This document shows, one piece after another, positions 3,226 to 46,000 of a stretch of DNA of 64,000 nucleotides. The stretch comes from Sternotherus odoratus. Its lineage: Eukaryota; Chordata; Testudines; Kinosternidae. Position numbers and translations under genes: made by a program. Position 1 is the first letter of the stretch; each line of letters begins with the position of its first letter. The stretch spans positions 81,882,712-81,946,711 of the forward strand of contig JAVMKO010000009.1 in assembly GCA_032164245.1 (NCBI GenBank), read 5' to 3'. The notes beneath the pieces are model-generated. The model did not search any database. It saw nothing but the letters and a program-made list of their open reading frames with translations, and had not been told where the DNA came from.

Positions 3226-3308
3226 GGACTAGTATCAGATGTCAAAATCTCCAATGAGCGCAGTTTGCTCATCGGAGATTTTGACATCTGATACTTGTCC
3301 TTAGGTAG
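3220..3308. repeat. Short palindrome, possible nested MITE
   Basis: CTACCTAAGGACTAGTATCA is mirrored by TGATACTTGTCCTTAGGTAG around a centre near 3264. The same palindrome is present at 53559-53648 in the other family member, so it was in the element before the two dispersed. Confidence 0.7.
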
Positions 3309-3656
3309 CAAGATTCTTCACCTGAGCTCTTGCGAGTCCTGCAAAGAAAGAACCTCCCCCTAGAAAGCAGCTTGGGACCTGCCCCAAAAACGGGACAAAA
3401 TTGATATTTTTGTCAAAAAGACGGGACGGTCCAAAAATATGTAAAAAACGGGACTGTCCCGTTCAAAACGGGACGTATGGTCAGCCTACTTATAGACTAA
3501 CAGATCTTGGGGATCATGAGCTTTCGTGGGCTAAGACCCACCTCATCAGATGAATGTCCATCTGATGAAGTGGGTCTTAGCCCATGAAAGTTCATGATCC
3601 CTAAGATCTGTTAGTCTATAAGGTACTACAAGACTCTTTGTCGCAGTTCCCTACAA

Positions 3657-4480
3657 GGCAGTCAGTGGCACTTCACTTACAATGTTCAGCATGAAATCCA
3701 ACAGACTGTGAGCCCTTAAAGGCAGAGCCCAGGCCTTCTTGTATGTGCAGAGGCAACACTTTGTACTCGGAGTGCTACCATAATATAAATAAAAGAATAT
3801 CTACCGAGGCTTTCCTAGTGTGTCCAGCTTTATAGGATCTGGACTGCAACAAAATTCCAAAAAGCAACCGACCAGTCTGCAAGACTGCATATCCTTGTTG
3901 CTATTATTTTTAATGATATTTTTAATGCAGATTCTTGTAGCTAATAGATAACACTGCCAAGATCCTTTCCCTGCACGGTTTAGTAGAAGCAGTTTATCTA
4001 AATGCTATTAGGCTAGTGTTAGTTAATGACAATATTTACCACAAAGAGCGAAGTTGTTCCAAAAAAATTAAACTGAATCTTTGAATAATGTTCTGGATCT
4101 AAAGATTGGCTCCCCAAGTAGTTTCTCAGTGATTCTGGCAAAAACACAGCAGCCCAGGCCTTTTTAAAAGGTTCTTCACGTATATCAATCTGTATGAAAG
4201 AGATAAAATTCTCAGCGATGTGTCTGCCTCAGGCCTAATACACAGTAACATCCCTAGGCACTGACTCTTGTTTTTTTGGTTAGTAGCTTTTTTTTTGGGG
4301 GGGGGGGGGAATTTCCCTTTCAATTTGTTTTCTTTGTGAGCATTTTATTCAGTCTGAAAAGAAAGCATGTCCCTGCCATCAAAGATAAAGGTGAACAGCT
4401 GTTTCCTTCCTGTACCCCTAGTGGGATTGGGTCAGAGACCTAGAATGGGAATGTTTTACAAACACAGGGCCATCATGATG
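3657..4480. other. Intronic sequence, nothing recognised apart from a T/G homopolymer run
   Basis: Unique-looking AT-rich sequence. A T9-G13 run lies near 4286-4310. No exon supported. Confidence 0.4.
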
Positions 4481-6869: not shown

Positions 6870-7035
6870 CGTGAGATCAACGCCTTCCTTATATGAGGTA
6901 ACTCCAAAGGCTGCTCCTTTGAAACCACTGGGATCTGGACGCATCACAGCCATGGCCAGCGTAGCCAATACTATTGATTCATTTCTCTCAGTATAAGGCA
7001 TTTTGAAACCGATCTCTTCAGTTATCCTTAAGATT
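6870..7035 (-). CDS. ADGRG4: ADGRG4-like coding exon 11: GAIN domain, last exon recognised
   Basis: A 166-bp exon, phase 2 in and phase 0 out. Acceptor TTATACTTCATAAAG|AATCTT, donor CTCACG|GTGAGA. It encodes [14 protein letters not shown], then [17 protein letters not shown], then [15 protein letters not shown]. The last part resembles the first strands of GAIN subdomain B. The GPS cleavage motif and the seven-helix region must follow at lower coordinates; I saw no convincing continuation exon between 1 and 6869, so they are probably outside the window. Confidence 0.78.
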
Positions 7036-22000: not shown

Positions 22001-25000
22001 ATCATAGGACCCATGGCATGATTCAGCAGTTGCACACTTGAGCCAGTTCCTTACAACAGTGTCCTCCTGAGTCCCACACCAGTTTTAAATGCCCGCACAG
22101 TTGTTCATTCTAGCCATGTCACTTTTCCTGTCCGTGTCTTGCTTTTGAGGGCTAATTAGCTCAGGAGGAAAGACTACTAAGGGTACAGTATAAACTGCCA
22201 GTACCAGGTTTCTCATCTTATAGTCTAGAAGCCCTTCTATATTTCACAATCTCTATTTTTCCCCTTACGATTTTCAGAATCTGTCATGCTTCATGTAAAC
22301 AGTGCAATGTTTTGTTTTGTTGTTGCCATCTACAACCTCCATCATTCAAGTGATGATGAGGGAGGAGAAAGCAGAAAGTCAAAATGTGCGTAATGGTAAA
22401 ACTATATCTCAAAGACTGTACATGTAACATTTCCATCAATCTAGCAAATGCCAAACAACCCCACTTCTCTCACCTGCCTACAGATTAAATATAAACATAC
22501 ATGGGTTTGGCTCTAAAGATCAGTGTGGGAGTTTGATGCAGAAATACTGTTATTTTTAAATAGAGTTTTGTGCCTGTAAATCCTGCAGCAGACTCTAGGC
22601 ACTCAGACCTAGATCCTCAAAGGTATTTGATGCCTAACGTCCATTTATTTCAATGGGAGTGAGGCCTATATATCTTTCAGAGCCTGGGCCTCAAATACTG
22701 CAGTGGGGAGCCCTTTAAATACGTTGTTAGACACCTTAGATTTGACCTAGGGTGATCTGTGACCTCACACTCTGGTTCTGAATTTTCATAGGTCAAAATC
22801 CTGACCAACCTCATTTACATCCATAAAACCCCAGACGCAATGAACGCTTTCACCATCTTAAACTGGAACTTGTTCCTGTGACTCCAGTTGCATGGGTGAA
22901 AATGAGTTCACAATTTGGCTCAAAATGTTCTGCCTGCCTTGTGCAAGACACATGTGAAGTTCAAAATACAAAGTTTGGAGACTCCTAAAAGTCACGGTTG
23001 GATCTGGGGTTCTGGTTTGTCCCATTATACAGAGAGATCATTTGTGAAAGGTCAGTCAGGGTCCTGATTACAAACTCTCCCAAAGTCTAGGTTAGGTTGT
23101 GGAGTAAATAAACACACTAGTCAAGTACTTACATGCCTCCAGTTTTTACATAATAATTTGTCACAACAAATTCACCTTCACGAAATCTGGCATTAAGCTG
23201 CAAGAGAAACAAGTTTCTCATTAACTCAGGTCAATATTTTAATTAGAGATGCTTGTAAATTCAGTTTCAATGTTTTTTAAAAATGGGTAAAAAATTTAGC
23301 AAAAATGTTAGCAAAAATGTCAAAATTCATCATGTTTTTTGACCTACTCTAATTCTAACCCATGAACACTGTTTTCACAAAGAGGTCAGATATAGCTTGA
23401 TCAGTCAATTGTCCTCCTCAAAGGAAACCTGCACAACACTTTCAAAAGATGAATTTAAGCTCCCAGGCTCATAACTTTGCCAGACACTACAAATCATGGA
23501 CTGAACAGAAACACTGGGTTTACGTTTTATTACAATAATCTATGACCCACTAACCCACTCTTTTTTGTCCTATGACTGCAGAAGTGTTAACAGGCCACTC
23601 TACCTTGAATGGTCCCTTACAATATGAAGGGCTTGTCCTCACTGGGGGGCGGGGGGGGGGATCGATGGCAGATATGCAACTTCAGCTACGTGAATCACGT
23701 AGCTGAAGTTTGTGTATCTGCTGCCGACTTACCACTTGTCCCCATGGCGGCAGCAGGCAGCGGCGCGCTCCCCCGTCGACTCCAGCTTGCGCCTCCCGGC
23801 AAGCTGGAGTTCCGGAGTCGACAGGGGAGCCGCGGGCGATCGATTTATTGCATCTTAGCGAGACACGGTAAATTGATCGCCAGAAGATCGATCCCGGAGC
23901 AGCCTCGTGAAGACAAGCCCTTACTTTGCTAAATAATCTCCTCTACCTTCTATTTAGTAGCAATGCCAGGACTACTGTTCCCAGACTTGAAAAAGAGCTC
24001 TATATAGCTCAAAAGCTTGTCCCTCTCACCAACAGAAGTTGGTCCACTTAAAGATATTACCTCTCCCATTGTGTCTCTTTATGAAAAATCTTTCAAAGAA
24101 CATGACTAAGAAACTCCATAACGTTGTTTCTTTTGTTAACTGAACAATTCTCTGTGCTTTGCCCTGGGAGTTCATATTGTTCTTTTAGTTATCTCCTGAT
24201 ACTTATCCACAATTTAATCGGGGGGAATCTACTTACCCAGTTTTTAGCAAGGTTCTTTGCATCATAATAATCAGGAGTTCTCTGAGTTTCATAGAAGAGG
24301 GAAAAGTTCATTGTGATGTCATAGAAGGTAACTGTAGTAATGGAAAATAAGCAGAGCCGTATTTTGAAGCCAGCATAAAAATATGTTGGTATCCCTGTCT
24401 CCTCCCATCTCTGTCTGCCTGTCTATATTCTAGAAGTTCGCGTTTAACACAGTAATGTACTGTATTTGGGTTTGGGGTTTTGGTCTCTCTCTGCTGCTGC
24501 CTGCTTGCATATTTCCAGTTCCAAATGAGGTGTGTGGTCAGTTCTAGGGTGACCAGATGTCCCGATTTCCTAGGTAACAAAGTCCCGGGGCACCTTAAAG
24601 ACTAACTATAAAGTTTTGAAGCATGAGCTTTCGTGGGCTAATACCCACTTCGTCGGATGCAAGCTTGTGGGTATTAGCCCACGAAAGCTCATGCTTCAAA
24701 ACTTTATAGTTAGTCTTTAAGGTGCCACAGGACTTTGTTACCTCTGCTATTCCAGACTAACACAGCTACCTCTCTGATTTCCTAGGGACAGTCTGATTTT
24801 GGAGTCTTTTTCTTATATAGGCTCCTATTACCCCCCACCTTCTGTTCTGATTTTTCACATTTGCTGTCTGGTCACACTAGGTCAGTTCGTACCTCTGGTG
24901 TTCGTAACTCTGAGGTTCTGCTGTATCTCATTCAGCACGCTAAATGCCCCAATAACTATGTGGCTGAAATGAGACAATCACTACACTCTTGAATGAATTC

Positions 25001-28000
25001 ACAGAGGAAAAAATAAGACAAACGCTGTCACCTGTGGGTGAACACTTTTTGCAAAATGACTCATAGACATTAAGACTGGAAGGGATCATCACTATCTACA
25101 CTGAAGGCCACAGAGCCTCACCCCCTACCCATTCCTGTAGTAGACCCCTAACCTCTAGCTGAGTTACTGAAGTCCTCAAATCATGATTTAAAGACTTCAT
25201 GTTACAGAGAATCCACCATTTACATGCAACCTGCAAGTGACCCATGCAGCAGAGGAAGTTGAAACCCCCTCCCCAGAGTCTCCACCAATCTGACCTGGGG
25301 GAAAATTCCTTCCCGACCCCAAATATGGTGATCCGTTGGACTCTGAGCATACGACAAGACCCACCAGCCAGACCCCTGGGAAAGAATTCTCTGCAATAAC
25401 TCAGACATCCCCATCTAGTGTTTGAGCTGTTGATCCTCATCCTCGAAGGAAATGTGCATAACGCCTTCAAAAGACATGCAGTGGAGCTTACATTCAGAAC
25501 TCTGCTAAACACTTAAAATCATGGACAGAATTGATACTAGATTTATGGTTTATGACACCAATCTATAACCAATTTACCTCTCCCACAGTTTCCCCCCCCC
25601 TTTCTCCCCTATGACTGGAGAGATGTTAACAGGCTACTTCACATTGAACGGTCCCTTGAAATATGTGTTAACTACATATGCTAAACAATCTGTTCCACCT
25701 TGAATTTAGCTGTGACTCCCGTGGCCTGGCCAGGTCAGTTGATTCAGGCTCATGGGGTTCAGGCAGCAGGGCTAAAAAGTGCTGTGTAGACACTTGGGCT
25801 CAGACTGGCGCCCAAGATCTGAGACATTCAACCCTGGCAGGATCCCGCGCAGCTCAGGCATCAGCCTGATCCCAAATGTCTACACAACAATTTTTCAGCC
25901 TTGGAGCCCAAGTCCCGTGAGTCCAAGTCAGCCAACCGGGCCAGCCATGGGTTTTTTAATCCCTGTGTAGACATGCTTTCTGAGTACCTTTTCCAGACCT
26001 GACAGAGCTCTGTGTAGTTTGAAAGCTTCTCTCTCTGACCAACAGAAGTTGCTTCAATAAAAGATTATTATCTCACTCAGCTTCTCTCTCTAATAAAAAA
26101 TAATAGTCCTTTTCATTTAGAGTTACATTGTAGGGAAGATACACAATAAGAAAGATAAAAAAGCCCTCACAGAGATAAATTGTTCTGCTTTTGTCACCAT
26201 TGGAAGATATGCAATTTACATTTTCACTTCTATATATTTGATCTTAAAGACACAATCTAACTCTTAGATAGATAGCAGCTGTGAGGCTTTCTGCCTAATT
26301 TGCATCAGGAAGATGCTTAAATTGCTTTTCTAGGAAAAATAGTTAATCTCAACAAATTAGGCATACTATATGTAATCCAAATGTATAGATGTATTTGGTT
26401 GGGATTAACATATAGAGACAACTCCAGCTGCTTTTGTTTAGCCAGGAATGAACTGCAGCTGGAAGCATCACCTGTTAGCATCTAACCACCTGATTCAAAC
26501 AGACAGGTAGCTAGGCAGCTAAGGACTAACAAAGCCAAACAATCATGACTTCCTAATTTGCGCCCACAATGAATCTGCAGGGACAACAATGTGAGAGCCT
26601 GCACAAAGAGAAACTCAGTCAAACAGGTTGTCATTCTTCCATTTATTTTAAGAAAGATATAGTATACTATGGATTAAATGTGATGAGTTGTCTGAGTACC
26701 TAAGAACTATTGGGGTTCTCATCTCATTTCTTTGCTACTGGGGCTGGATCATTAGAAGGGGGGTTTCTCTTCATGGTTTAACGTAAAAACCTAGATGAAA
26801 TGTGGCATTCTGTATAGTCCACTACTCTTTACCCACAGAAAATCATGCAAATGTCTTACCTTTTTTATGTTGTTCTACTGGAGTAGATAGATCAGGTGTA
26901 GATACTAATGTGGAGTCGGAGGGTTTGGATGTGGTTTTGGTATCTGAAGATAAGGTTGTCACTGTTGGTCTGGAAACAGGCAAAATACTAGCAGGTTTAG
27001 TGGTAGATGTAGTTACAATATGTTGTGATGTAGCGTCACCAGGTTTGGAAGTAGAAACAGTCTCCTTAGGTTTGGGTGAAGCCGTGATCTCAGCAGAGAT
27101 CAATGGATGAGTCGTCCCGGGCACAGTAACTGAGGTACTGGGTGTTGGCGTTGTGGAAGAGGATGTGGGTGAAGCCGTGGTCTCAGCAGATATCAATGGA
27201 TGAGTCGTCCCGGGCACAGTAACTGAGGTACTGGGTGTTGGCGTTGTGGAAGTGGATGTGGGTGAAACAGGGGTCTCAGCAGAGATCAGTGGATGAGTCG
27301 TCCCGGGCACAGTAGCTGAGGTACTGGGTGTTGGCGTTGAGGAAGAGGATGTGGGTGAAGCTGTGGTCTCAGCAGAGATCAATGGATGAGTCGTCCCGGG
27401 CACATTAACCGAGGTACTGGGTGTTGGCGTTGTGGAAGAGGATGTGGGTGAAGTCGTGGTCCCAGCAGAGACCAATGGGTGGGTTGTCCCGGGCACAGTA
27501 ACTGAGGTACTGAGTGTTGGGGTTGTGGAAGTGGATGTGGGTGAAACAGGGGTCTCAGCTGAGATCAGTGGCTGAGTCATCCCGGGCACATTAACTGAGG
27601 TACTGGGTGTCGGCGTTGTGAAAGAGGATGTGGGTGAAGTCGTGGTCCCAGCAGAGACCAATGGATGGGTCGTCCCGGCCACAGTAACTGAGGTACTAGG
27701 TGTTTGCGTTGTGGAAGAGGATGTGGGTGAAGCTGTGGTCTCATCAGAAATCAATGGATGAGTCGTTCCGGGCACAGTAACGGAGGTACTGAGTGTTGGT
27801 GTTGTGGAAGTGGATGTGGGTGAAACAGGGGTCTCAGCAGAGATCAGTGGATGAGTCGTCCCGGGCACAGTAACTGAGGTACTAGGTGTTTGCGTTGTGG
27901 AAGAGGATGTGGGTGAAGCCGTGGGCTCAGCAGAGATCAATGGATGAGTCGTCCCGGGCACAGTAACTGAGGTACTGGTTGTTGGTGTTGTGGAAGAGGA

Positions 28001-31000
28001 TGTGGGTGAAGCCGTGGTCTCAGCAGAGATCATTGTATGGGTTGTCCCGGGCACAGTAACTGAGGTACTGGGTATTCGTGTTGAGGAAGAGGATGTGGGT
28101 GAAGTTGTGGTCTCAGCAGAGATCAATGGATGAGTCGTCCCAGGCACAGTAACTGAGGTACTGGGTGTTGGCGTTGTGGAGGAGGATGTGGGTGAAGTCG
28201 TGGTCCCAGCAGAGATCAATGGGTGGGTCGTCCCGGGCACAGTAGCTGAGGTACAGGGTGTTGGCGTTGTGGAAGAGGATGTGGGTGAAGTCGTGGTCTC
28301 ATCAGAAATCAATGGATGAGTCGTCCCGGGCACAGTAACTGAGGTACTGAGTGTTGGTGTTGTGGAAGTGGATGTGGGTGTAACAGGGGTCTCAGCAGAG
28401 ATCAGTGGATGAGTCGTCCCGGGCTCAGTAACTGAGGTACTGGGTGTTGGAGTTGTGGAAGAGGATGTGGGTGAAGCCGTGGTCTCAGCAGAGCTCAATG
28501 GGTTGGTCGTCCCAGGCACAGTAACTGAGGTACTGGGTCTTGGCGTTGTGGAAGAGGATGTGGGTGAATCCGGGGTCTCAGCAGAGATCAGTGGATGAGT
28601 CGTCCCGGGCTCAGTAACTGAGGTACTGGGTGTTGGTGTTGTGGAAGAGGATGTGGGTGAAGCCGTGGTCTCAGCAGAGCTCAATGGGTTGGTCGTCCCG
28701 GGCACAGTAACTGAGGTACTGGGTGTTGGCGTTGTGGAAGAGGATGTGGGTGAAGTCGTGGTCCCAGCAGAGATCAATGGGTGGGTCGTCCCGGGCACAG
28801 TAACTGAGGTACTGGGTGTTGGTGTTCTGGAAGAGGATGTGGGTGAAGCCGTGGTCTCAGCAGAGATCAATGGATCGGTCGTCCCGGGCACAGTAACGGA
28901 GGTAATGGGTGTTGGTGTTGTGGAAGTGGATGTGGGTGAAACAGGGGTCTCAGCAGAGATCAGTGGATGAGTCGTCCCGGGCACAGTAGCTGAAGTACTG
29001 GGTGTTGGCGTTGTGGAAGAGGATGTGGGTGAAGCTGTGGTCTCAGCAGAGATCAATGGATGAGTCGTCCCAGGCACAGTAACTGATGTACTAGGTGTTG
29101 GCTTTGTGGAAGAGGATGTTGGTGAAATCGTGGTCCCAGCAGAGACCAATGGGTGGGTCGTCCCGGGGACAGTAACTGAGGTACTGAATGTTGGTGTGGA
29201 AGTGGATGTGGGTGAAACAGGGGTCTCAGCAGAGATCAGTGGATGAGTCGTCCCGGGCACAGTAGCTGAGGTACTGGGTGTTGGCGTTGAGGAAGAGGAT
29301 GTGGGTGAAGCTGTGGTCTCAGCAGAGATCAATGGATGAGTCATCCCGGGCACATTAACCGAGGTACTGGGTGTTGGCGTTGTGGAAGAGGATGTGGGTG
29401 AAGTCGTGGTCCCAGCAGAGACCAATGGGTGGGTTGTCCCGGGCACAGTAACTGAGGTACTGAGTGTTGGGGTTGTGGAAGTGGATGTGGGTGAAACAGG
29501 GGTCTCAGCTGAGATCAGTGGCTGAGTCATCCCGGGCACATTAACTGAGGTACTGGGTGTTGGCGTTGTGAAAGAGGATGTGGGTGAAGTCGTGGTCCCA
29601 GCAGAGACCAATGGATGGGTCGTCCCGGGCACAGTAACTGAGGTACTAGGTGTTTGCGTTGTGGAAGAGGATGTGGGTGAAGCTGTGGTCTCATCAGAAA
29701 TCAATGGATGAGTCGTTCCGGGCACAGTAACGGTGGTACTGAGTGTTGGTGTTGTGGAAGTGGATGTGGGTGAAACAGGGGTCTCAGCAGAGATCAGTGG
29801 ATGAGTCGTCCCGGGCTCAGTAACTGAGGTACTGGGTGTTGGAGTTGTGGAAGAGGATGTGGGTGAAGCCGTGGTCTCAGCAGAGATCAATGGATGAGTC
29901 GTCCCGGGCACAGTAACTGAGGTACTGGTTGTTGGTGTTGTGGAAGAGGATGTGGGTGAAGCCGTGGTCTCAGCAGAGATCATTGTATGGGTTGTCCCGG
30001 GCACAGTAACTGAGGTACTGGGTATTCGTGTTGTGGAAGAGGATGTGGGTGAAGTTGTGGTCTCAGCAGAGATCAATGGATGAGTCGTCCCAGGCACAGT
30101 AACTGAGGTACTGGGTGTTTGTCTTCTGGAAGAGGATATGGGTGAAGTTGTGGTCTCAGCAGAGATCAATGGATGAGTCGTCCCGGGCACAGTAACTGAG
30201 GTACTGGGTGTTGGCGTTGTGGAAGAGGATGTGGGTGAAGCCGTGGTGTCAGCAGAGATCAATGGATGAGTCGTTCCGGGCACAGTAACTGAGGGACTGG
30301 GTATTGGTGTTGTAGAAGAGGATGTGGGTGAAGTTGTGGTGTCAGCAGAGATCAATGGATGAGTCGTCCCGGGCACAGTAACTGAGGTACTGGGTGTTGG
30401 TGTTGTGGAAGAGGAAGTGGGTGAAGTCGTGGCCTCAGCAGAGATCAATGGATGAGTAATCCCGGGCACACTACCTGAGGGACTGGGTGTTGCCGTTGTG
30501 GAAGAAGATATGGGTGAAGTCGTGGTCTCAGCAGAGATCAATGGATGCGTCATCCCGGGCACATTATGTGTAGTACTGGGCATTAGTGTTGAGGAAGAGG
30601 ATGTGGGTGAAGCCGTGGTCCCAGCAGAGATCAATGGATGAGTCATCCCGGGCACAGTAACTGAGGTACTGGGTTTTGGTGTTGTGGAAGAGGATGTGGG
30701 TAAAGTCGTGGTCTCAGTAGAGATCAATGGATGAATCGTCCCGGGCACAGTAACTGAGGTACTGGGTGTTGGCGTTGTGGAGGAGGATGTGGGTGAAGTC
30801 GTGGTCTCATCAGAAATCAATGGATGAGTCGTCCCGGGCACAGTAACTGAGGTACTGAGTGTTGGTGTTGTGGAAGTGGATGTGGGTGAAACAGGGGTCT
30901 CAGCAGAGATCAGTGGATGAGTCGTCCCGGGCTCAGTAACTGAGGTACTGGGTGTTGGAGTTGTGGAAGAGGATGTGGGTGAAGCCGTGGTCTCAGTAGA

Positions 31001-34000
31001 CATCAATGGATGAGTCGTCCCAGGCACAGTAACTGAGGGACTGGGTGTTGGCGTTGTGGAGGAGGATATGGGTGAATCCGGGGTCTCAGCAGAGATCAAT
31101 GGATGGGTTGTCCCGGGCACAGTAACTGAGGTACTGGGTGTTGGCGTTGTGGAAGAGGATGTGGGTGAAGCCGTGGTCTCAGCAGAGATCAATGGATCGG
31201 TCGTCCCGGGCACAGTAACGGAGGTACTGGGTGTTGGTGTTGTGGAAGTGGATGTGGGTGAAACAGGGGTCTCAGCAGAGATCAGTGGATGAGTTGTCCC
31301 GGGCACAGTAACTGAGGTACTGGGTGTTGGCTTTGTGGAAGAGGATGTTGGTGAAATCGTGGTCCCAGCAGAGACCAATGGGTGGGTCGTCCCGGGGACA
31401 GTAACTGAGGTACTGGGTATTCGTGTTGTGGAAGAGGATGTGGGTGAAGTTGTGGTCTCAGCAGAGATCAATGGATGAGTCGTCCCAGGCACAGTAACTG
31501 AGGTACTGGGTGTTGGCGTTGTGGAAGAGGATGTGGGTGAAGTTGTGGTTCGAGCAGAGATCAATGTGGGAATCGTCCCAGGCACAGTAACTGAGGTACT
31601 GGGTATTCGTGTTGTAGAAGAGGATGTGGGTGAAGTTGTGGTCTCAGCAGAGATCAATGGATGAGTCGTCCCAGGCACAGTAACTGAGGTACTGGGTGTT
31701 GGCGTTGTGGAAGAGGATGTGGGTGAAGTTGTGGTTCGAGCAGAGATCAATGTGGGAATCGTCCCAGGCACAGTAACTGAGGTACTGGGTGTTTGTCTTG
31801 TGGAAGAGGATATGGGTGAAGTTGTGGTCTCAGCAGAGATCAATGGATGAGTCGTCCCGGGCACAGTAACTGAGGTACTGGGTGTTGGTGTTGTGGAAGA
31901 GGAAGTGGGTGAAGTCGTGGCCTCAGCAGAGATCAATGGATGAGTAATCCCGGGCACACTACCTGAGGGACTGGGTGTTGCCGTTGTGGAAGAAGATATG
32001 GGTGAAGTCGTGGTCTCAGCAGAGATCAATGGATGCGTCATCCCGGGCACATTATGTGTAGTACTGGGCATTAGTGTTGAGGAAGAGGATGTGGGTGAAG
32101 CCGTGGTCCCAGCAGAGATCAATGGATGAGTCATCCCGGGCACAGTAACTGAGGTACTGGGTGTTGGTGTTGTGGAAGAGGATGTGGGTAAAGTCGTGGT
32201 CTCAGTAGAGATCAATGGATGAATCGTCCCGGGCACAGTAACTGAGGTACTGGGTGTCGGCGTTGTGGAGGAGGATGTGGGTGAAGTCGTGGTCTCATCA
32301 GAAATCAATGGATGAGTCGTCCCGGGCACAGTAACTGAGGTACTGAGTGTTGGTGTTGTGGAAGTGGATGTGGGTGAAACAGGGGTCTCAGCAGAGATCA
32401 GTGGATGAGTCGTCCCGGGCTCAGTAACTGAGGTACTGGGTGTTGGAGTTGTGGAAGAGGATGTGGGTGAAGCCGTGGTCTCAGTAGAGATCAATGGATG
32501 AGTCGTCCCAGGCACAGTAACTGAGGTACTGGGTGTTGGCGTTGTGGAGGAGGATGTGGGTGAAGTCGTGGTCCCAGCAGAGATCAATGGGTGGGTCGTC
32601 CCGGGCACAGTAGCTGAGGTACAGGGTGTTGGCGTTGTGGAAGAGGATGTGGGTGAAGTCGTGGTCTCATCAGAAATCAATGGATGAGTCGTCCCGGGCA
32701 CAGTAACTGAGGTACTGAGTGTTGGTGTTGTGGAAGTGGATGTGGGTGAAACAGGGGTCTCAGCAGAGATCAGTGGATGAGTCGTCCCGGGCTCAGTAAC
32801 TGAGGTACTGGGTGTTGGAGTTGTGGAAGAGGATGTGGGTGAAGCCGTGGTCTCAGCAGAGCTCAATGGGTTGGTCGTCCCGGGCACAGTAACTGAGGTA
32901 CTGGGACTTGGCGTTGTGGAAGAGGATGTGGGTGAATCCGGGGTCTCAGCAGAGATCAGTGGATGAGTCGTCCCGGGCTCAGTAACTGAGGGACTGGGTG
33001 TTGGCGTTGTGGAAGAGGATGTGGGTGAAGCCGTGGTGTCAGCAGAGATCAATGGATGGGTCGTCCCTGGCACAGTAACTGAGGGACTGGGTCTTGGTGT
33101 GGAAGAGGATGTGGGTGAAGCCATGATCTCAGCAGAGATCAATGGATAGGTCGTCCCGGGCACAGTAACTGAGGTACTGGGTGTTGGCGTTGTGGAAGAG
33201 GATGTGGGTGAATCCGGGGTCTCAGTAGAGATCAATGGATGAGTCGTCCTGGGCACACTAACTGAGGTACTGGGTGTTGGCGTTGTGGAAGAGGATGTGG
33301 GTGAAGTCGTGGTCCCAGCAGAGATCAATGGGGGGGTCGTCCCGGGCACAGTAACTGAGGTACGGGGTGTTGGCGTTGTGGAAGAGGATGTGGGTGAAGT
33401 CGTGGTCCCAGCAGAGATCAATGGGTGGGTCGTCCCGGGCACAGTAACTGAGGTACTGGGTGTTGGCGATGTGGAAGAGGATGTGGGTGAAGCGGTGGTC
33501 TCAGCAGAGATCAATGGATCGGTCGTCCCGGGCACAGTAACGGAGGTACTGGGTGTTGGTGTTGTGGAAGTGGATGAGGGTGAAACAGGGGTCTCAGCAG
33601 AGATCAGTGGATGAGTCGTCCCGGTCACAGTAGCTGAAGTACTGGGTGTTGGCGTTGTGGAAGAGTATGTGGGTGAAGCTGTGGTCTCAGCAGAGATCAA
33701 TGGATGAGTCGTCCCAGGCACAGTAACTGATGTACTAGGTGTTGGCGTTGTGGAAGAGGATGTTGGTGAAATCGTGGTCCCAGCAGAGACCAATGGGTGG
33801 GTCGTCCCGGGGACAGTAACTGAGGTACTGAATGTTGGTGTTGTGGAAGTGGATGTGGGTGAAACAGGGGTCTCAGCAGAGATCAGTGGATGAGTCGTCC
33901 CGGGCACAGTAGCTGAGGTACTGGGTGTTGGCGTTGAGGAAGAGGATGTGGGTGAAGCTGTGGTCTCAGCAGAGATCAATGGATGAGTCGTCCCGGGCAC

Positions 34001-37000
34001 ATTAACCGAGGTACTGGGTGTTGGCGTTGTGGAAGAGGATGTGGGTGAAGTCGTGGTCCCAGCAGAGACAAATGGGTTGGTCGTCCCGGGCACAGTAACT
34101 GAGGTACTGGGTGTTGGCTTTGTGGAAGAGGATGTGGGTGAAGTCGTGGTCCCAGCAGAGATCAATGGGTGGGTCGTCCCGGGCACAGTAACTGAGGTAC
34201 TGGGTGTTGGTGTTCTGGAAGAGGATGTGGGTGAAGCCGTGGTCTCAGCAGAGATCAATGGATCGGTCGTCCCGGGCACAGTAACGGAGGTAATGGGTGT
34301 TGGTGTTGTGGAAGTGGATGTGGGTGAAACAGGGGTCTCAGCAGAGATCAGTGGATGAGTCGTCCCGGGCACAGTAGCTGAAGTACTGGGTGTTGGCGTT
34401 GTGGAAGAGGATGTGGGTGAAGCTGTGGTCTCAGCAGAGATCAATGGATGAGTCGTCCCAGGCACAGTAACTGATGTACTAGGTGTTGGCTTTGTGGAAG
34501 AGGATGTTGGTGAAATCGTGGTCCCAGCAGAGACCAATGGGTGGGTCGTCCCGGGGACAGTAACTGAGGTACTGAATGTTGGTGTGGAAGTGGATGTGGG
34601 TGAAACAGGGGTCTCAGCAGAGATCAGTGGATGAGTCGTCCCGGGCACAGTAGCTGAGGTACTGGGTGTTGGCGTTGAGGAAGAGGATGTGGGTGAAGCT
34701 GTGGTCTCAGCAGAGATCAATGGATGAGTCATCCCGGGCACATTAACCGAGGTACTGGGTGTTGGCGTTGTGGAAGAGGATGTGGGTGAAGTCGTGGTCC
34801 CAGCAGAGACCAATGGGTGGGTTGTCCCGGGCACAGTAACTGAGGTACTGAGTGTTGGGGTTGTGGAAGTGGATGTGGGTGAAACAGGGGTCTCAGCTGA
34901 GATCAGTGGCTGAGTCATCCCGGGCACATTAACTGAGGTACTGGGTGTTGGCGTTGTGAAAGAGGATGTGGGTGAAGTCGTGGTCCCAGCAGAGACCAAT
35001 GGATGGGTCGTCCCGGGCACAGTAACTGAGGTACTAGGTGTTTGCGTTGTGGAAGAGGATGTGGGTGAAGCTGTGGTCTCATCAGAAATCAATGGATGAG
35101 TCGTTCCGGGCACAGTAACGGTGGTACTGAGTGTTGGTGTTGTGGAAGTGGATGTGGGTGAAACAGGGGTCTCAGCAGAGATCAGTGGATGAGTCGTCCC
35201 GGGCTCAGTAACTGAGGTACTGGGTGTTGGAGTTGTGGAAGAGGATGTGGGTGAAGCCGTGGTCTCAGCAGAGATCAATGGATGAGTCGTCCCGGGCACA
35301 GTAACTGAGGTACTGGTTGTTGGTGTTGTGGAAGAGGATGTGGGTGAAGCCGTGGTCTCAGCAGAGATCATTGTATGGGTTGTCCCGGGCACAGTAACTG
35401 AGGTACTGGGTATTCGTGTTGTGGAAGAGGATGCGGGTGAAGTTGTGGTCTCAGCAGAGATCAATGGATGAGTCGTCCCAGGCACAGTAACTGAGGTACT
35501 GGGTGTTGGCGTTGTGGAAGAGGATGTGGGTGAAGTTGTGGTTCGAGCAGAGATCAATGTGGGAATCGTCCCAGGCACAGTAACTGAGGTACTGGGTGTT
35601 TGTCTTGTGGAAGAGGATATGGGTGAAGTTGTGGTCTCAGCAGAGATCAATGGATGAGTCGTCCCGGGCACAGTAACTGAGGTACTGGGTGTTGGTGTTG
35701 TGGAAGAGGAAGTGGGTGAAGTCGTGGCCTCAGCAGAGATCAATGGATGAGTAATCCCGGGCACACTACCTGAGGGACTGGGTGTTGCCGTTGTGGAAGA
35801 AGATATGGGTGAAGTCGTGGTCTCAGCAGAGATCAATGGATGCGTCATCCCGGGCACATTATGTGTAGTACTGGGCATTAGTGTTGAGGAAGAGGATGTG
35901 GGTGAAGCCGTGGTCCCAGCAGAGATCAATGGATGAGTCATCCCGGGCACAGTAACTGAGGTACTGGGTGTTGGTGTTGTGGAAGAGGATGTGGGTAAAG
36001 TCGTGGTCTCAGTAGAGATCAATGGATGAATCGTCCCGGGCACAGTAACTGAGGTACTGGGTGTCGGCGTTGTGGAGGAGGATGTGGGTGAAGTCGTGGT
36101 CTCATCAGAAATCAATGGATGAGTCGTCCCGGGCACAGTAACTGAGGTACTGAGTGTTGGTGTTGTGGAAGTGGATGTGGGTGAAACAGGGGTCTCAGCA
36201 GAGATCAGTGGATGAGTCGTCCCGGGCTCAGTAACTGAGGTACTGGGTGTTGGAGTTGTGGAAGAGGATGTGGGTGAAGCCGTGGTCTCAGTAGAGATCA
36301 ATGGATGAGTCGTCCCAGGCACAGTAACTGAGGTACTGGGTGTTGGCGTTGTGGAGGAGGATGTGGGTGAAGTCGTGGTCCCAGCAGAGATCAATGGGTG
36401 GGTCGTCCCGGGCACAGTAGCTGAGGTACAGGGTGTTGGCGTTGTGGAGGAGGATGTGGGTGAAGTTGTGGTCTCATCAGAAATCAATGGATGAGTCGTC
36501 CCGGGCACAGTAACTGAGGTACTGAGTGTTGGTGTTGTGGAAGTGGATGTGGGTGAAACAGGGGTCTCAGCAGAGATCAGTGGATGAGTCGTCCCGGGCT
36601 CAGTAACTGAGGTACTGGGTGTTGGAGTTGTGGAAGAGGATGTGGGTGAAGCCGTGGTCTCAGCAGAGCTCAATGGGTTGGTCGTCCCGGGCACAGTAAC
36701 TGAGGTACTGGGACTTGGCGTTGTGGAAGAGGATGTGGGTGAATCCGGGGTCTCAGCAGAGATCAGTGGATGAGTCGTCCCGGGCTCAGTAACTGAGGGA
36801 CTGGGTGTTGGCGTTGTGGAAGAGGATGTGGGTGAAGCCGTGGTGTCAGCAGAGATCAATGGATGGGTCGTCCCTGGCACAGTAACTGAGGGACTGGGTC
36901 TTGGTGTGGAAGAGGATGTGGGTGAAGCCATGATCTCAGCAGAGATCAATGGATAGGTCGTCCCGGGCACAGTAACTGAGGTACTGGGTGTTGGCGTTGT

Positions 37001-40000
37001 GGAAGAGGATGTGGGTGAATCCGGGGTCTCAGTAGAGATCAATGGATGAGTCGTCCTGGGCACACTAACTGAGGTACTGGGTGTTGGCGTTGTGGAAGAG
37101 GATGTGGGTGAAGTCGTGGTCCCAGCAGAGATCAATGGGGGGGTCGTCCCGGGCACAGTAACTGAGGTACGGGGTGTTGGCGTTGTGGAAGAGGATGTGG
37201 GTGAAGTCGTGGTCCCAGCAGAGATCAATGGGTGGGTCGTCCCGGGCACAGTAACTGAGGTACTGGGTGTTGGCGATGTGGAAGAGGATGTGGGTGAAGC
37301 GGTGGTCTCAGCAGAGATCAATGGATCGGTCGTCCCGGGCACAGTAACGGAGGTATTGGGTGTTGGTGTTGTGGAAGTGGATGAGGGTGAAACAGGGGTC
37401 TCAGCAGAGATCAGTGGATGAGTCGTCCCGGTCACAGTAGCTGAAGTACTGGGTGTTGGCGTTGTGGAAGAGTATGTGGGTGAAGCTGTGGTCTCAGCAG
37501 AGATCAATGGATGAGTCGTCCCAGGCACAGTAACTGATGTACTAGGTGTTGGCGTTGTGGAAGAGGATGTTGGTGAAATCGTGGTCCCAGCAGAGACCAA
37601 TGGGTGGGTCGTCCCGGGGACAGTAACTGAGGTACTGAATGTTGGTGTTGTGGAAGTGGATGTGGGTGAAACAGGGGTCTCAGCAGAGATCAGTGGATGA
37701 GTCGTCCCGGGCACAGTAGCTGAGGTACTGGGTGTTGGCGTTGAGGAAGAGGATGTGGGTGAAGCTGTGGTCTCAGCAGAGATCAATGGATGAGTCGTCC
37801 CGGGCACATTAACCGAGGTACTGGGTGTTGGCGTTGTGGAAGAGGATGTGGGTGAAGTCGTGGTCCCAGCAGAGACAAATGGGTTGGTCGTCCCGGGCAC
37901 AGTAACTGAGGTACTGGGTGTTGGCTTTGTGGAAGAGGATGTGGGTGAAGTCGTGGTCCCAGCAGAGATCAATGGGTGGGTCGTCCCGGGCACAGTAACT
38001 GAGGTACTGGGTGTTGGTGTTCTGGAAGAGGATGTGGGTGAAGCCGTGGTCTCAGCAGAGATCAATGGATCGGTCGTCCCGGGCACAGTAACGGAGGTAA
38101 TGGGTGTTGGTGTTGTGGAAGTGGATGTGGGTGAAACAGGGGTCTCAGCAGAGATCAGTGGATGAGTCGTCCCGGGCACAGTAGCTGAAGTACTGGGTGT
38201 TGGCGTTGTGGAAGAGGATGTGGGTGAAGCTGTGGTCTCAGCAGAGATCAATGGATGAGTCGTCCCAGGCACAGTAACTGATGTACTAGGTGTTGGCTTT
38301 GTGGAAGAGGATGTTGGTGAAATCGTGGTCCCAGCAGAGACCAATGGGTGGGTCGTCCCGGGGACAGTAACTGAGGTACTGAATGTTGGTGTGGAAGTGG
38401 ATGTGGGTGAAACAGGGGTCTCAGCAGAGATCAGTGGATGAGTCGTCCCGGGCACAGTAGCTGAGGTACTGGGTGTTGGCGTTGAGGAAGAGGATGTGGG
38501 TGAAGCTGTGGTCTCAGCAGAGATCAATGGATGAGTCATCCCGGGCACATTAACCGAGGTACTGGGTGTTGGCGTTGTGGAAGAGGATGTGGGTGAAGTC
38601 GTGGTCCCAGCAGAGACCAATGGGTGGGTTGTCCCGGGCACAGTAACTGAGGTACTGAGTGTTGGGGTTGTGGAAGTGGATGTGGGTGAAACAGGGGTCT
38701 CAGCTGAGATCAGTGGCTGAGTCATCCCGGGCACATTAACTGAGGTACTGGGTGTTGGCGTTGTGAAAGAGGATGTGGGTGAAGTCGTGGTCCCAGCAGA
38801 GACCAATGGATGGGTCGTCCCGGGCACAGTAACTGAGGTACTAGGTGTTTGCGTTGTGGAAGAGGATGTGGGTGAAGCTGTGGTCTCATCAGAAATCAAT
38901 GGATGAGTCGTTCCGGGCACAGTAACGGTGGTACTGAGTGTTGGTGTTGTGGAAGTGGATGTGGGTGAAACAGGGGTCTCAGCAGAGATCAGTGGATGAG
39001 TCGTCCCGGGCTCAGTAACTGAGGTACTGGGTGTTGGAGTTGTGGAAGAGGATGTGGGTGAAGCCGTGGTCTCAGCAGAGATCAATGGATGAGTCGTCCC
39101 GGGCACAGTAACTGAGGTACTGGTTGTTGGTGTTGTGGAAGAGGATGTGGGTGAAGCCGTGGTCTCAGCAGAGATCATTGTATGGGTTGTCCCGGGCACA
39201 GTAACTGAGGTACTGGGTATTCGTGTTGTGGAAGAGGATGCGGGTGAAGTTGTGGTCTCAGCAGAGATCAATGGATGAGTCGTCCCAGGCACAGTAACTG
39301 AGGTACTGGGTGTTGGCGTTGTGGAAGAGGATGTGGGTGAAGTTGTGGTTCGAGCAGAGATCAATGTGGGAATCGTCCCAGGCACAGTAACTGAGGTACT
39401 GGGTGTTTGTCTTGTGGAAGAGGATATGGGTGAAGTTGTGGTCTCAGCAGAGATCAATGGATGAGTCGTCCCGGGCACAGTAACTGAGGTACTGGGTGTT
39501 GGTGTTGTGGAAGAGGAAGTGGGTGAAGTCGTGGCCTCAGCAGAGATCAATGGATGAGTAATCCCGGGCACACTACCTGAGGGACTGGGTGTTGCCGTTG
39601 TGGAAGAAGATATGGGTGAAGTCGTGGTCTCAGCAGAGATCAATGGATGCGTCATCCCGGGCACATTATGTGTAGTACTGGGCATTAGTGTTGAGGAAGA
39701 GGATGTGGGTGAAGCCGTGGTCCCAGCAGAGATCAATGGATGAGTCATCCCGGGCACAGTAACTGAGGTACTGGGTGTTGGTGTTGTGGAAGAGGATGTG
39801 GGTAAAGTCGTGGTCTCAGTAGAGATCAATGGATGAATCGTCCCGGGCACAGTAACTGAGGTACTGGGTGTCGGCGTTGTGGAGGAGGATGTGGGTGAAG
39901 TCGTGGTCTCATCAGAAATCAATGGATGAGTCGTCCCGGGCACAGTAACTGAGGTACTGAGTGTTGGTGTTGTGGAAGTGGATGTGGGTGAAACAGGGGT

Positions 40001-43000
40001 CTCAGCAGAGATCAGTGGATGAGTCGTCCCGGGCTCAGTAACTGAGGTACTGGGTGTTGGAGTTGTGGAAGAGGATGTGGGTGAAGCCGTGGTCTCAGTA
40101 GAGATCAATGGATGAGTCGTCCCAGGCACAGTAACTGAGGTACTGGGTGTTGGCGTTGTGGAGGAGGATGTGGGTGAAGTCGTGGTCCCAGCAGAGATCA
40201 ATGGGTGGGTCGTCCCGGGCACAGTAGCTGAGGTACAGGGTGTTGGCGTTGTGGAGGAGGATGTGGGTGAAGTTGTGGTCTCATCAGAAATCAATGGATG
40301 AGTCGTCCCGGGCACAGTAACTGAGGTACTGAGTGTTGGTGTTGTGGAAGTGGATGTGGGTGAAACAGGGGTCTCAGCAGAGATCAGTGGATGAGTCGTC
40401 CCGGGCTCAGTAACTGAGGTACTGGGTGTTGGAGTTGTGGAAGAGGATGTGGGTGAAGCCGTGGTCTCAGCAGAGCTCAATGGGTTGGTCGTCCCGGGCA
40501 CAGTAACTGAGGTACTGGGACTTGGCGTTGTGGAAGAGGATGTGGGTGAATCCGGGGTCTCAGCAGAGATCAGTGGATGAGTCGTCCCGGGCTCAGTAAC
40601 TGAGGGACTGGGTGTTGGCGTTGTGGAAGAGGATGTGGGTGAAGCCGTGGTGTCAGCAGAGATCAATGGATGGGTCGTCCCTGGCACAGTAACTGAGGGA
40701 CTGGGTCTTGGTGTGGAAGAGGATGTGGGTGAAGCCATGATCTCAGCAGAGATCAATGGATAGGTCGTCCCGGGCACAGTAACTGAGGTACTGGGTGTTG
40801 GCGTTGTGGAAGAGGATGTGGGTGAATCCGGGGTCTCAGTAGAGATCAATGGATGAGTCGTCCTGGGCACACTAACTGAGGTACTGGGTGTTGGCGTTGT
40901 GGAAGAGGATGTGGGTGAAGTCGTGGTCCCAGCAGAGATCAATGGGGGGGTCGTCCCGGGCACAGTAACTGAGGTACGGGGTGTTGGCGTTGTGGAAGAG
41001 GATGTGGGTGAAGTCGTGGTCCCAGCAGAGATCAATGGGTGGGTCGTCCCGGGCACAGTAACTGAGGTACTGGGTGTTGGCGATGTGGAAGAGGATGTGG
41101 GTGAAGCGGTGGTCTCAGCAGAGATCAATGGATCGGTCGTCCCGGGCACAGTAACGGAGGTATTGGGTGTTGGTGTTGTGGAAGTGGATGAGGGTGAAAC
41201 AGGGGTCTCAGCAGAGATCAGTGGATGAGTCGTCCCGGTCACAGTAGCTGAAGTACTGGGTGTTGGCGTTGTGGAAGAGTATGTGGGTGAAGCTGTGGTC
41301 TCAGCAGAGATCAATGGATGAGTCGTCCCGGGCACATTAACCGAGGTACTGGGTGTTGGCGTTGTGGAAGAGGATGTGGGTGAAGTCGTGGTCCCAGCAG
41401 AGACAAATGGGTGGGTCGTCCCGGGCACAGTAACTGAGGTACTGAGTGTTGGGGTTGTGGAAGTGGATGTGGGTGAAACAGGGGTCTCAGCTGAGATCAG
41501 TGGCTGAGTCATCCCGGGCACATTAACTGAGGTACTGGGTGTTGGTGTTGTGGAAGAGGATGTGGGTGAAGCCGTGGGCTCAGCAGAGATCAATGGATGA
41601 GTCGTCCCGGGCACAGTAATGGAGGTACTGAGTGTTGGTGTTGTGGAAGAGGATGTGGGTGAAACTATGGTCTCAGTAGAGATCAATGGATGAGTCGTCC
41701 CGGGCACATTAACTGAGGTATTGGGTGTTGGCGTTGTGGAAGAGGATGTGGGTGAAGTCATGGTCTCAGCAGAGATCAATGGGTTGGTCGTCCCGGGCAC
41801 AGTAACTGAGGTACTGGGTGTTGGTGTTCTGGAAGAGGATGTGGGTGAATCCGGGGTCTCAGCAGAGATCAGTGGATGAGTCGTCCCGGGCTCTGTAACT
41901 GAGGGACTGGGTGTTGGCGTTGTGGAAGAGGATGTGGGTGAAGCCGTGGTGTCAGCAGAGATCAATGGATGGGTCGTCCCGGGCACAGTAGCTGAGGTAC
42001 AGGGTGTTGGCGTTGTGGAAGAGGATATGGGTGAAGTCGTGGTCCCAGCAGAGACCAATGGATGAGTTGTCCCGGGCACAGTAACGGAGGTACTGAGTGT
42101 TGGTGTTGTGGAAGTGGATGTGGGTGAATCCGGGGTCTCAGCAGAGATCAGTGGATGAGTCGTCCCGGGCTCAGTAACTGAGGTACTGGGTGTTGGAGTT
42201 GTGGAAGAGGATGTGGGTGAAGCCGTGATCTCAGCAGAGATCAATGGGTTGGTCGTCCCGGGCACAGTAACTGAGGTACTGGGTGTTGGTGTTCTGGAAG
42301 AGGATGTGGGTGAATCCGGGGTCTCAGCAGAGATCAGTGGATGAGTCGTCCCGGGCTCAGTAACTGAGGGACTGGGTGTTGGTGTTCTGGAAGAGGATGT
42401 GGGTGAAGCCGTGGTGTCAGCAGAGATCAATGGATGGGTCGTCCCGGGCACAGTAGCTGAGGTACAGGGTGTTGGCGTTGTGGAAGAGGATATGGGTGAA
42501 GTCGTGGTCCCAGCAGAGACCAATGGATGAGTCGTCCCGGGCACAGTAACTGAGGTACTGAGTGTTGGTGTTGTGGAAGTGGATGTGGGTGAAAGAGGGG
42601 TCTCAGCAGAGATCAGTGGATGAGTCGTCCCGGGCTCAGTAACTGAGGTACTGCGTCTTGGCGTTGTGGAAGAGGATGTGGGTGAATTCGGGGTCTCAGC
42701 AGAGATCAGTGGATGAGTCGTCCCGGGCACAGTAACTGAGGTACTGGGTGTTGGTGTTCTGGAAGAGGATGTGGGTGAGGCCGTGATGTCAGCAGAGATC
42801 AATGGATGGGTCGTCCCGGGCACAGTAACTGAGGTACTGGGTGTTGGCGTTGTGGAAGAGGATGTGGGTGAATCCGGGGTCTCAGCAGAGATCAGTGGAT
42901 GAGTCGTCCCGGGCTCAGTAACTGAGGGACTGGGTGTTGGTGTTCTGGAAGAGGATGTGGGTGAGGCCGTGATGTCAGCAGAGATCAATGGATGGGTCGT

Positions 43001-46000
43001 CCCGGGCACAGTAACTGAGGTACTGGGTGTTGGCGTTGTGGAAGAGGATGTGGGTGAATCCGGGGTCTCAGCAGAGATCAGTGGATGAGTCGTCCCGGGC
43101 TCAGTAACTGAGGGACTGGGTGCTGGTGTTGTGGAAGAGGATGTGGGTGAAGCCATGGTGTCAGCAGAGATCAATGGATGGGTCGTCCCGGGCACAGTAA
43201 CTGAGGTACTGGGTGTTGGCATTGTGGAAGAGGATGTGGGTGAATCCGGGGTCTCAGCAGAGATCAGTGGATGAGTCGTCCCGGGCTCAGTAACTGAGTT
43301 ACTGGGTGTTGGAGTTGTGGAAGAGGATGTGGGTGAAGCCGTGGTCTCAGCAGAAATCAATGGATGAGTTGTCCCAGGCACAGTAACTGAGGTACTGGGT
43401 GTTGGTGTTATGTAAGAGGATGTGGGTGAAGCCGTGGCCTCAGCAGAGATCAATGGATGGGTCGTCCCGGGCATAATAACTGAGGGACTAGGTGTTGGCG
43501 TTGTGGAAGAGGATATGAGTGTAGGTTTGGTCCCACCAGGTTTAATCATTGATGTGGTCTCGGGTACTTGAGGTGTTGCGTTTGTAGTAGAGTATTCAGC
43601 TTCTGGCATCTCTGTTGCCTCAGGGACAGGTTCGGTTGTATAATGTACAGTAGTGTATCCAGGAACAGCTATGGTCGTGTCTTCAGTTGTTGTATCTCCA
43701 GTGGAAACTATGAAAGCAAAATGTTTTAAAATACATCTCAATCCAAATATAACAACCTTCATATGCAGACACTTCTTGACTGCAACCAGGAGTGCCCCGT
43801 TTTAGACTTGATCTTGCGAGGTGCTGAGCATCTTCAACCCCAGCTGAAAGCAACTCCTGGAGCTGACCAGCACCTTGCAGGATCAGCCCATTTGTACTAA
43901 TGAATCTTGTTAAGGAAAAATAACTTGTAGAAAACAAACTCATGTCATTGCAGGTAAGTAATTAACACTTAGGAATTACTTTTTAAGGCCAACAGGAATT
44001 GAAGATTTCAGGGTAGCTTTTCACACACACCAATATGTTGTAACCAAACACAGACTACATAACATACATGTAATGGCGCTGTGGAATATCAGACTCATTT
44101 GCTTAAGTTGTGTCCTCCTTGCTCTTCCGGGACATAGTTCAGTACTGTGCTAATCCAGTTCTATGCCTGTGTCACTCCATTGATTTAAATAGCATAAGAC
44201 TGGCATAAAATTAGAGTAATCCAGTGCTGAATCAGACTTCTGACCTCAGAAGACAGAGTGCTCAATCGATCTAAACTGACTTACACCAGCTGAGGAGATG
44301 GTGCTGTATGTTAAACAAGGTCTCTCTTTATGCTGAGCTTGTGTAACATTTATTGATATTAGATATATGGCCCAATTTACCACTGTTACACTCTAATTTC
44401 ACACCAGTGAAAACGAGGGCCGTCTTTCACTTTTCATTGCACGCTACCTAGAATCATATGCATTTTTACATGAAACGATAATAAATGGACATTTTTAGAA
44501 GTCTGTGTTACTATGGATGTAACGTGAATCAGGTACTTATCAGTGATGATCACTTTAACATTTACAGCCTTTGTTTCAAGAAAGGCACATACTTGGAGTG
44601 CTACCATTAGTAGATGTGGGTGGAAATAATGTAGTAGCAGCTGTTGATGATACTTCCTCTGAGCCTGTTGAGAAGATAAATAAAAGATGTAAAAATCTAT
44701 AGAGGCAAAATGAATATGCAAGAGAAAAGCTACTATAAAAGAGACTAAACTTCAGTCCTCTGTTGTACTGGTCATTGCTGTTCTTACTACGGGGACTGCT
44801 GCAAAACTACCACACCGAGGAACATACTTGTGCTCAGGTGGTGCCGATTACTCCAGGGATAACTGGATTACATAAGAGAGAAATGGGGAGTTGCAGAGTT
44901 CGGACCAAATTGGAAATCAGACTTTCTGTGGCAAAAGGATGATAAATTGGCTTCTAGTCTGGCTGCAGTAAGCCCTTTTCTTTTTCATGGCTCTGCATAC
45001 CTTTGTGCGTCCATCACCATGGTATCTGAGTCTTACTTCTTAGTGTGATCATGGCAGGTACAGAATAATAACACCTTCAATGCCTAATCTCTGGAAACCT
45101 CAGCTGGGCAAGCTCCAATCATGCCAACCACCACCATGGTGGCTGGCACTATAGAAAGGAGAATTTGCAATGACAATGAGCCAACCAACACAGAGGAATG
45201 ATAATGAAGATGTAGCAGATGGCAGGATGATAAGCAGATTCTGACTTTCTTTGAAGTGAACCAGAAGATTTGTTGTTACAAGGAGGAGGAGGAAGAATTG
45301 TTCTTAACCTCCGAGGATAGGACAAGATGCAATGGGCTTAAATTGCAGCAAGGGAGGTTTAGGTTGGAGTGGACTAACACTACAGCAACGGGAGGGATTT
45401 TCCTCTCACTGATCTACCTCCCTAAAATACCACCATGGCACAGCTAGTGAGCTCTGGTGTAGACATTACGTACGCCAATGGGAGAGCTCCCATCAATGTA
45501 GGTCATCCACCTTCCCAAGAGGTAGCTAGGTTGACGAAAGAATTCTTCCATTGACCTAGCACTGCCTACACTGGGGGTTAGGTCAGCATAGATACGCCTC
45601 TCTGGGGTGCGGCGCTGATGTAAGTTCCCAGTGTTGACCAGCCCTTATTGTTCATTTTATTTGTTAATAAAGTCAGACCTCAGCAAGAGATTAATTTTGA
45701 CTCTACACAGACTGCATGGCCTATGCCTTAGAGAAAATGGGAGGAGGGAGCGGGAGGGAATTTATAAGATTTCACAAAAGACCAGCTCGAGGGAAGAAAC
45801 AGTCACTGAAGCAGAACCATTCAATCAACATGCATCAAATTCAGTACTCACGGGCTCCAGCCCAAGCCTGAACGTCAGTACTCCAGTTTATAGCCCTGCA
45901 CCTCAGCTGTGCATGTTTTATTGCGGTGTAGACATACCCCACAATGACTCCTACGCAGAGTGAGACTGCCAGTCTCTGAATTTCCTCTGAGCGGAAAGAG

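Follow-up and report, generated by a model that had tools for sequence, protein, structure and literature searches.

Introduction

Can a single open reading frame (ORF) of almost 17 kb in a turtle genome be an exon of a receptor gene, and if so, how did it become so large? The question is raised by a stretch of 64,000 nt from Sternotherus odoratus (Testudines; Kinosternidae; GenBank assembly GCA_032164245.1, contig JAVMKO010000009.1, forward-strand positions 81,882,712–81,946,711), called the window below; coordinates count from its first nucleotide. A first-pass annotation, made from the letters alone, described a 16.8-kb open exon encoding the mucin-type stalk of the adhesion G protein-coupled receptor (GPCR) ADGRG4. 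The explanation we favor, and consider probably right on the sequence evidence, is a functional turtle ADGRG4 ortholog whose stalk exon has grown by in-frame expansion of a variable-number tandem repeat (VNTR).

A giant exon built of tandem repeats

The ORF runs for 5,652 codons without a stop on the minus strand (43801–26846). Inside it lies the exon, at 26860..43707 (minus strand; 16,848 nt, about 5,616 residues), with acceptor ...GCTTTCATAG|TTTCC and donor AAAAAG|GTAAGA, phase 1 at both ends. The coding frame has 0 stops, against 114–358 in each of the five other frames. The annotated single open exon is thereby confirmed, and so is its mucin-type character: the tract is a Ser/Thr/Pro repeat with 30.6% Thr, 21.7% Ser and 16.2% Pro (68% S/T/P in total) and only 6 Cys in 5,618 residues. 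Its 2,937 Ser and Thr are candidate O-glycosylation sites only.

Most of the exon is a 93-bp (31-residue) tandem array at 27073..43521 on the minus strand, for which Tandem Repeats Finder reports period 93, 177.1 copies and 87% matches. Units have 31 codons in 169 cases and 30 codons in six, the six being copies of two variants, and departures from the unit length are of one codon only. Among 170 31-codon units, 84 are distinct. Non-repeat S/T-rich sequence flanks the array in the same frame (about 60 residues at the start of the exon and about 70 at its end).

A higher-order repeat is superimposed on the array at 31628..41329 (minus strand), where a self-match of the exon gives a 3,807-bp period (41 units) and 2.55 periods. 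Offset by 3,807 bp, the exon matches itself over nt 2,378–8,273; 3 of the 5,895 aligned bases differ, and one run of 3,973 bp is exact. The blocks have three differing sites and diverged edges, and partial copies occur further along the array. Such near-identity suggests recent unequal exchange.

No Pfam family was found in the two 1,000-residue ends of the exon, and a 30-base piece of the repeat had 0 matches in viral_contigs. Used as a protein query, the mucin exon passed against 0 of the 7,966 candidates with most words in common; this probably results from the HMMER composition correction and is uninformative rather than evidence of absence.

Gene identity and exon model

Upstream of the giant exon, coding exon 2 (56768..57388, minus strand) encodes a pentraxin (PTX) domain (Pfam Pentaxin, E 9.4e-12). 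Searched against the PDB, it matches ADGRG4 8b55 at E 8.6e-49 and 169.6 bits, ahead of neuronal pentraxin-2 (47.2 bits) and the next adhesion GPCR, ADGRG6 (35.2 bits). A protein search with the PTX domain accepted 29 of 114 candidates. Those of the turtles Terrapene triunguis (90% identical) and Eretmochelys imbricata (85%) ranked first, and bird, crocodilian and other proteins came next. Because the PTX domain is much closer to ADGRG4 than to ADGRG6 and has 90% identity with the box-turtle protein, we identify the gene by similarity as turtle ADGRG4, and the first-pass name is borne out.

For the full gene we used the window plus 18 kb beyond its left edge. Searches of single short exons against PDB and Pfam gave nothing firm except PTX, so most exons were located with tblastn using full-length Dasypus (armadillo) ADGRG4 (P0030, 2,820 aa) as query. 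Exon splice sites were selected among candidates by GT-AG, phase and similarity. The resulting 20-exon model has 6,622 codons, 0 stops, AG acceptors at 19 of 19 sites, GT donors at 20 of 20 and compatible phases. Given how sites were selected, the splice-site and phase fit is partly by construction; the absence of stops and the protein matches are not. The model reads signal peptide, pentraxin, short S/T exon, giant exon, SEA-like, HRM-like, GAIN, GPS with HLT and seven-transmembrane (7TM) region, and its exons from PTX to the seventh transmembrane helix (TM7) are colinear with Dasypus ADGRG4 on one (minus) strand. As annotated, the strand that carries the giant exon also carries PTX upstream of it and GAIN downstream, and the giant exon is coding exon 4. 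These parts, their order and the intact frame are read directly from the DNA, the SEA and HRM counterparts by weak similarity. A long Ser/Thr-rich stalk stands between PTX and SEA/HRM, its P/T/S-rich tandem repeats contained in one large exon.

All exons that follow are on the minus strand. Coding exon 1 (62656..62746) carries the start codon and signal peptide, is 93% identical to the N-terminus of Caretta caretta P0029 (tblastn E 2e-14) and ends in a phase 1 donor, CAG|GTATAG. Coding exon 3 (44593..44664), a short Ser/Thr-rich linker, is 87.5% identical to Caretta P0029 (E 8e-8) and has phase 1 in and out. A search between PTX and exon 3 for a further coding exon resembling the mammalian sequence found none (best score 29 versus 33–36 for shuffled sequence), although one may exist.

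Beyond the giant exon, the region before HRM, where a SEA domain is predicted in human ADGRG4 (PMC10687090), holds three exons that can be aligned with the protein of Gavialis or Dasypus, two of them weakly. Coding exon 5 (24237..24331), the start of the SEA-like region, is matched by tblastn with Dasypus P0030 (E 9e-5), Caretta P0029 (E 4e-12), Gavialis P0011 (E 1e-8) and Melanerpes P0012 (E 2e-8), and its phases fit. Exons 6 and 7 are putative, called from weak similarity and phase fit. Exon 6 (23133..23197), the SEA-like middle, has a Gavialis P0011 match at E 0.010, AG/GT ends and a compatible phase. Exon 7 (16866..17020), the SEA-like end, is the weakest call in the model: aligned locally with Dasypus it scores 51 (three shuffled sequences give 34, 36 and 38), its phases fit both neighbors and its donor GTAATA scores low (3.3). 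No Pfam SEA match was obtained at E 0.1 in the region after the mucin tract.

The HRM-like region consists of exons 8 (13786..13906; Dasypus tblastn E 8e-6; Pfam HRM E 0.034, below cut-off) and 9 (13107..13225; E 1e-6); Pfam HRM reaches 14–15 bits, below the cut-off of 26.2. Four exons of the GAIN region follow in the window: exon 10 (10627..10840; Dasypus E 6e-12, Caretta P0029 E 1e-31), exon 11 (6870..7035; Dasypus E 1e-6), exon 12 (4040..4189; Dasypus E 0.002, local score 79 versus 33–36 shuffled) and exon 13 (892..1014; Dasypus E 3e-6), whose match also runs into the upstream intron and whose donor GTACAG scores low (2.7). No GAIN family match was found in Pfam at E 0.1 with the model protein; the HRM–GAIN piece, a hand-joined query, aligns with ADGRG6 6v55 at E 1.5e-6. 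Coding exons 14–20, encoding GPS and 7TM, lie outside the window beyond its left edge and were placed by Dasypus tblastn; in a genome search for the 7TM region, 2 of 86 matches fall 7.0–10.4 kb past that edge on the gene's strand. Pfam GPS matches at E 1.3e-16, with the cleavable-type motif ...CNHLTHFGVLL containing HLT, and Pfam 7tm_2 at E 1.9e-43 over positions 4–250 of 250, indicating a secretin-type 7TM.

Contrary evidence and alternative explanations

Several results weigh against a functional ADGRG4 that uses the giant exon at its assembled length, and we collect them here. The 7TM region does not separate ADGRG4 from ADGRG2: in the PDB search the GPS and 7TM piece scores 426.0 bits with ADGRG2, 425.5 with ADGRG4 (a match that begins only at query residue 40) and 409.1 with ADGRG6, so the ADGRG4 name comes from the PTX domain. 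Past TM7, 6.7 kb of sequence yielded no C-terminal tail (the highest local score, 42, is unconvincing and without a control). The open frame pointed out in the first-pass annotation is indeed unbroken but counts for little as evidence in an array of period 93. For a random 93-mer with this base make-up, the probability that a given frame is open is 0.43, and one open unit, once amplified, gives an ORF of arbitrary length.

A parsimony tree was used to reconstruct changes among the repeat units. It includes 83 of the 84 distinct 31-codon units, a diverged terminal one being left aside together with those of 30 codons; expected counts are means over 5,000 random placements. The 199 inferred substitutions comprise 129 nonsynonymous, 70 synonymous and 0 stops, compared with 132.7, 63.3 and 3.0 expected. 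The stop-free outcome has P=0.044; as many synonymous changes have P=0.18, and as few nonsynonymous changes at S/T codons P=0.14. With all 84 units the counts are 145 nonsynonymous, 80 synonymous and 1 stop versus 151.1, 71.3 and 3.6 expected, the single stop existing in the reconstruction only (the exon itself has 0). Residues inside the array are barely constrained, with a pattern near neutral as expected for a mucin tract, so the case for coding must come from gene context. Strong evidence for coding comes from the ADGRG4 exons to either side, to which the giant exon joins in frame, not from the open frame. A non-coding intronic minisatellite, open in one frame by chance, would agree with the probability for a random 93-mer, the near-neutral counts and the weak acceptor described below. 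We regard it as very improbable. Against it stand the in-frame phase-1 junctions on both sides, the S/T-rich flanks in the same frame, the lack of stops, the restriction of unit-length departures to one codon and the armadillo protein, in which a long S/T stretch occupies the corresponding position.

Evidence on the use of the exon is mixed. Splice sites were scored with a simple frequency matrix. The giant exon's acceptor scores 2.5, the lowest of 19 (others 5.2–14.7); 18.5% of all AG on the gene strand score at least as high, and a second phase-1 AG, 12 nt further along, has an equal score. The exon's donor, at 11.1, shares the top score among donors. A weakest acceptor (43707) with a joint strongest donor is a pattern compatible with regulated inclusion. 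Ten AGs inside the array score at least 8 (best 9.4), all in phase 2; splicing at these strong internal sites would break the frame from exon 3 and was rejected. Weaker phase-1 internal AGs exist.

Protein models bear on the same point. Skipping was assessed in 28 of the 29 proteins that passed the PTX search. Those of Gavialis (P0011), Melanerpes (P0012) and Caretta (P0029) pass straight from exon 3 to the SEA exon, and these three are all the compared models that run from exon 3 to a recognizable later exon; Harpia P0003 ends three residues past exon 3. Caretta P0029 is a poor model, since HRM and the middle of PTX are dropped and a GAIN exon is read in another frame. A further search used a PTX, linker and mucin query with matches limited to the PTX region. 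Admitting proteins of about 1,726–5,493 residues, it found 1 of 762 candidates (Dasypus, 2,820 aa) and none from a sauropsid; ADGRG4 of other mammals was also absent, so the reach of this search is limited. Bird and crocodilian ADGRG4-like proteins (P0003–P0027) have 166–361 residues and mostly end soon after PTX. The PTX search admitted only about 124–394 residues, so this shortness is partly imposed; skipping of a giant low-complexity exon by gene predictors may also explain it.

Such results could mean that the exon is a rarely used cassette and that turtles and other sauropsids chiefly produce a short ADGRG4 (PTX, linker, SEA, HRM, GAIN, 7TM). The symmetric 1/1 phase makes frame-neutral skipping possible, and the weakest-scoring acceptor and the three models without the exon point the same way, but those models may be gene-prediction failures. 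Together with the strong donor, the armadillo ortholog's long S/T stalk in the corresponding position and the stop-free substitutions, this makes the cassette an unlikely account in our judgment. A somewhat better, though still minority, chance attaches to a real exon whose assembled length is wrong or atypical, the 3,807-bp blocks having been multiplied or collapsed in assembly or the sequence being one of many length alleles; this is compatible with our favored explanation. The 2.55 near-identical periods and the long exact self-match are what it would predict. The three differing sites, diverged edges and partial copies elsewhere are nevertheless those expected from stepwise unequal exchange, and human mucin exons vary similarly (PMC13345508, preprint). 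The annotated 5,616 residues therefore hold as assembled but include blocks that may be polymorphic or mis-assembled, so the number is uncertain; minus two 3,807-bp periods, the stalk would have 3,078 residues.

Proposed origin and function

In the ADGRG4 ortholog that we favor, a 93-bp coding minisatellite would have been amplified in frame first and a 3.8-kb higher-order block afterwards, giving a VNTR like that of a membrane mucin. The giant exon would be included in at least some transcripts, and its repeats would be densely O-glycosylated and stiff. At 2.5 Å per residue and full extension, 5,616 residues could place the PTX tip up to 1.4 µm from the membrane, or 0.77 µm if the stalk has 3,078 residues; human ADGRG4 is put at more than 0.5 µm by the same measure (PMC10687090). 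The first-pass statement that the receptor reaches far beyond the glycocalyx goes further than these estimates, which are for full extension. The turtle PTX may dimerize, as the human PTX does independently of calcium (PMC10687090). Shear or traction on the tip could then be transmitted along the rod to the GAIN domain, where force would expose the tethered (Stachel) agonist and switch on the 7TM region. Repeat number, and hence stalk length, would be expected to vary between individuals through unequal exchange.

More tentatively, and with confidence short of even, we propose that turtle ADGRG4 is the largest known GPCR polypeptide (>6,622 residues) and a true VNTR membrane mucin: a force-sensing tether of up to about 1.4 µm whose length varies between individuals by unequal crossing-over, so that a minisatellite sets its reach or mechanical threshold. 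If the exon is used, the stalk of a proposed force sensor has been multiplied roughly threefold over armadillo, with a heritable and variable length. The locus would then be a natural experiment to show whether the activation of adhesion GPCRs is tuned by the length of the tether, and would exemplify the growth of a VNTR mucin within a signaling receptor.

Other features of the window

A GC-rich dispersed repeat occurs at 2353–3343 and 53522–54207, with matches of 228–313 bp that are 91.7–94.9% identical (two inverted and one direct); purine-rich local tandem repeats adjoin it. At 15208–15564 there are GC-rich tandem repeats of 48–49 bp, one set being three identical copies, and ORFs of 167–181 codons lie nearby on both strands. 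Another dispersed element forms an inverted pair at 60925–61219 and 23628–23923 (84.5% identical over 297 bp).

Comparison with known systems

The turtle protein shares its architecture with armadillo ADGRG4 and human Q8IZF6 (GPR112): signal peptide, PTX, Ser/Thr-rich stalk, SEA-like, HRM-like, GAIN, GPS with HLT, and 7TM. The stalks differ. That of armadillo has 1,731 residues, 46% S/T/P and no periodicity (best autocorrelation 0.12), whereas that of the turtle has about 5,616 residues (roughly threefold), 68% S/T/P and a 31-residue period (autocorrelation 0.75). The VNTR is thus not general to ADGRG4, as judged from one full-length ortholog. The first-pass annotation put the exon at almost twice the human protein; the scale fits, the giant exon alone being 1.99 times the whole armadillo protein, with which we compared it instead.

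A parallel for the repeat array is found in the tethered mucins MUC4, MUC12 and MUC1, which likewise are membrane proteins with PTS repeats arrayed in tandem in one giant exon. In people, MUC4 alleles extend to 27,843 bp and MUC12 is predicted at up to 23,080 residues, both length-variable (PMC13345508, preprint), so the turtle exon is not a size record among exons. No relationship to these mucin genes was seen, no test aimed at one having been made; unlike these mucins, the turtle gene has a pentraxin cap and is anchored by a seven-helix receptor with GAIN and GPS. Mucin domains are known to arise or grow by in-frame gain of P/T/S-coding VNTRs (Pajic et al., 2022, via the review PMC12776774). 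The mucinization cases of that review are mammalian proline-rich proteins, many of them salivary, whereas the turtle case is an expansion in a receptor whose counterpart in mammals possesses a stalk rich in S/T to begin with.

ADGRV1 (VLGR1) is, like turtle ADGRG4, a very large adhesion GPCR. It is large by calcium-binding (Calx-beta) repeats spread over many exons, and turtle ADGRG4 by one mucin exon. The phrase '6306 amino acids' occurs together with VLGR1 in the literature; turtle ADGRG4, at over 6,622 residues, would exceed this.

In the open-licence literature, we found nothing joining ADGRG4 with 'tandem repeat' and nothing combining three of the terms GPCR, VNTR, mucin domain, extracellular stalk and giant exon; the papers returned for adhesion GPCR with tandem repeat, mucin-like and turtle were unrelated by title. 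The excerpt of PMC8584163, a paper that mentions ADGRG4 and turtle, does not contain 'tandem repeat'. The first-pass annotation considered the giant exon and its mucin stalk the best candidate in the window for something not described. A PTX head on a mucin stalk is published: stalk residues 279–2244 of human ADGRG4 have been scored as mucin-like, and a role as a shear sensor (mechanosensor) has been proposed for the PTX-capped receptor on its mucin stalk (PMC10687090). What the turtle locus adds is the coding VNTR array in one giant exon, and its size.

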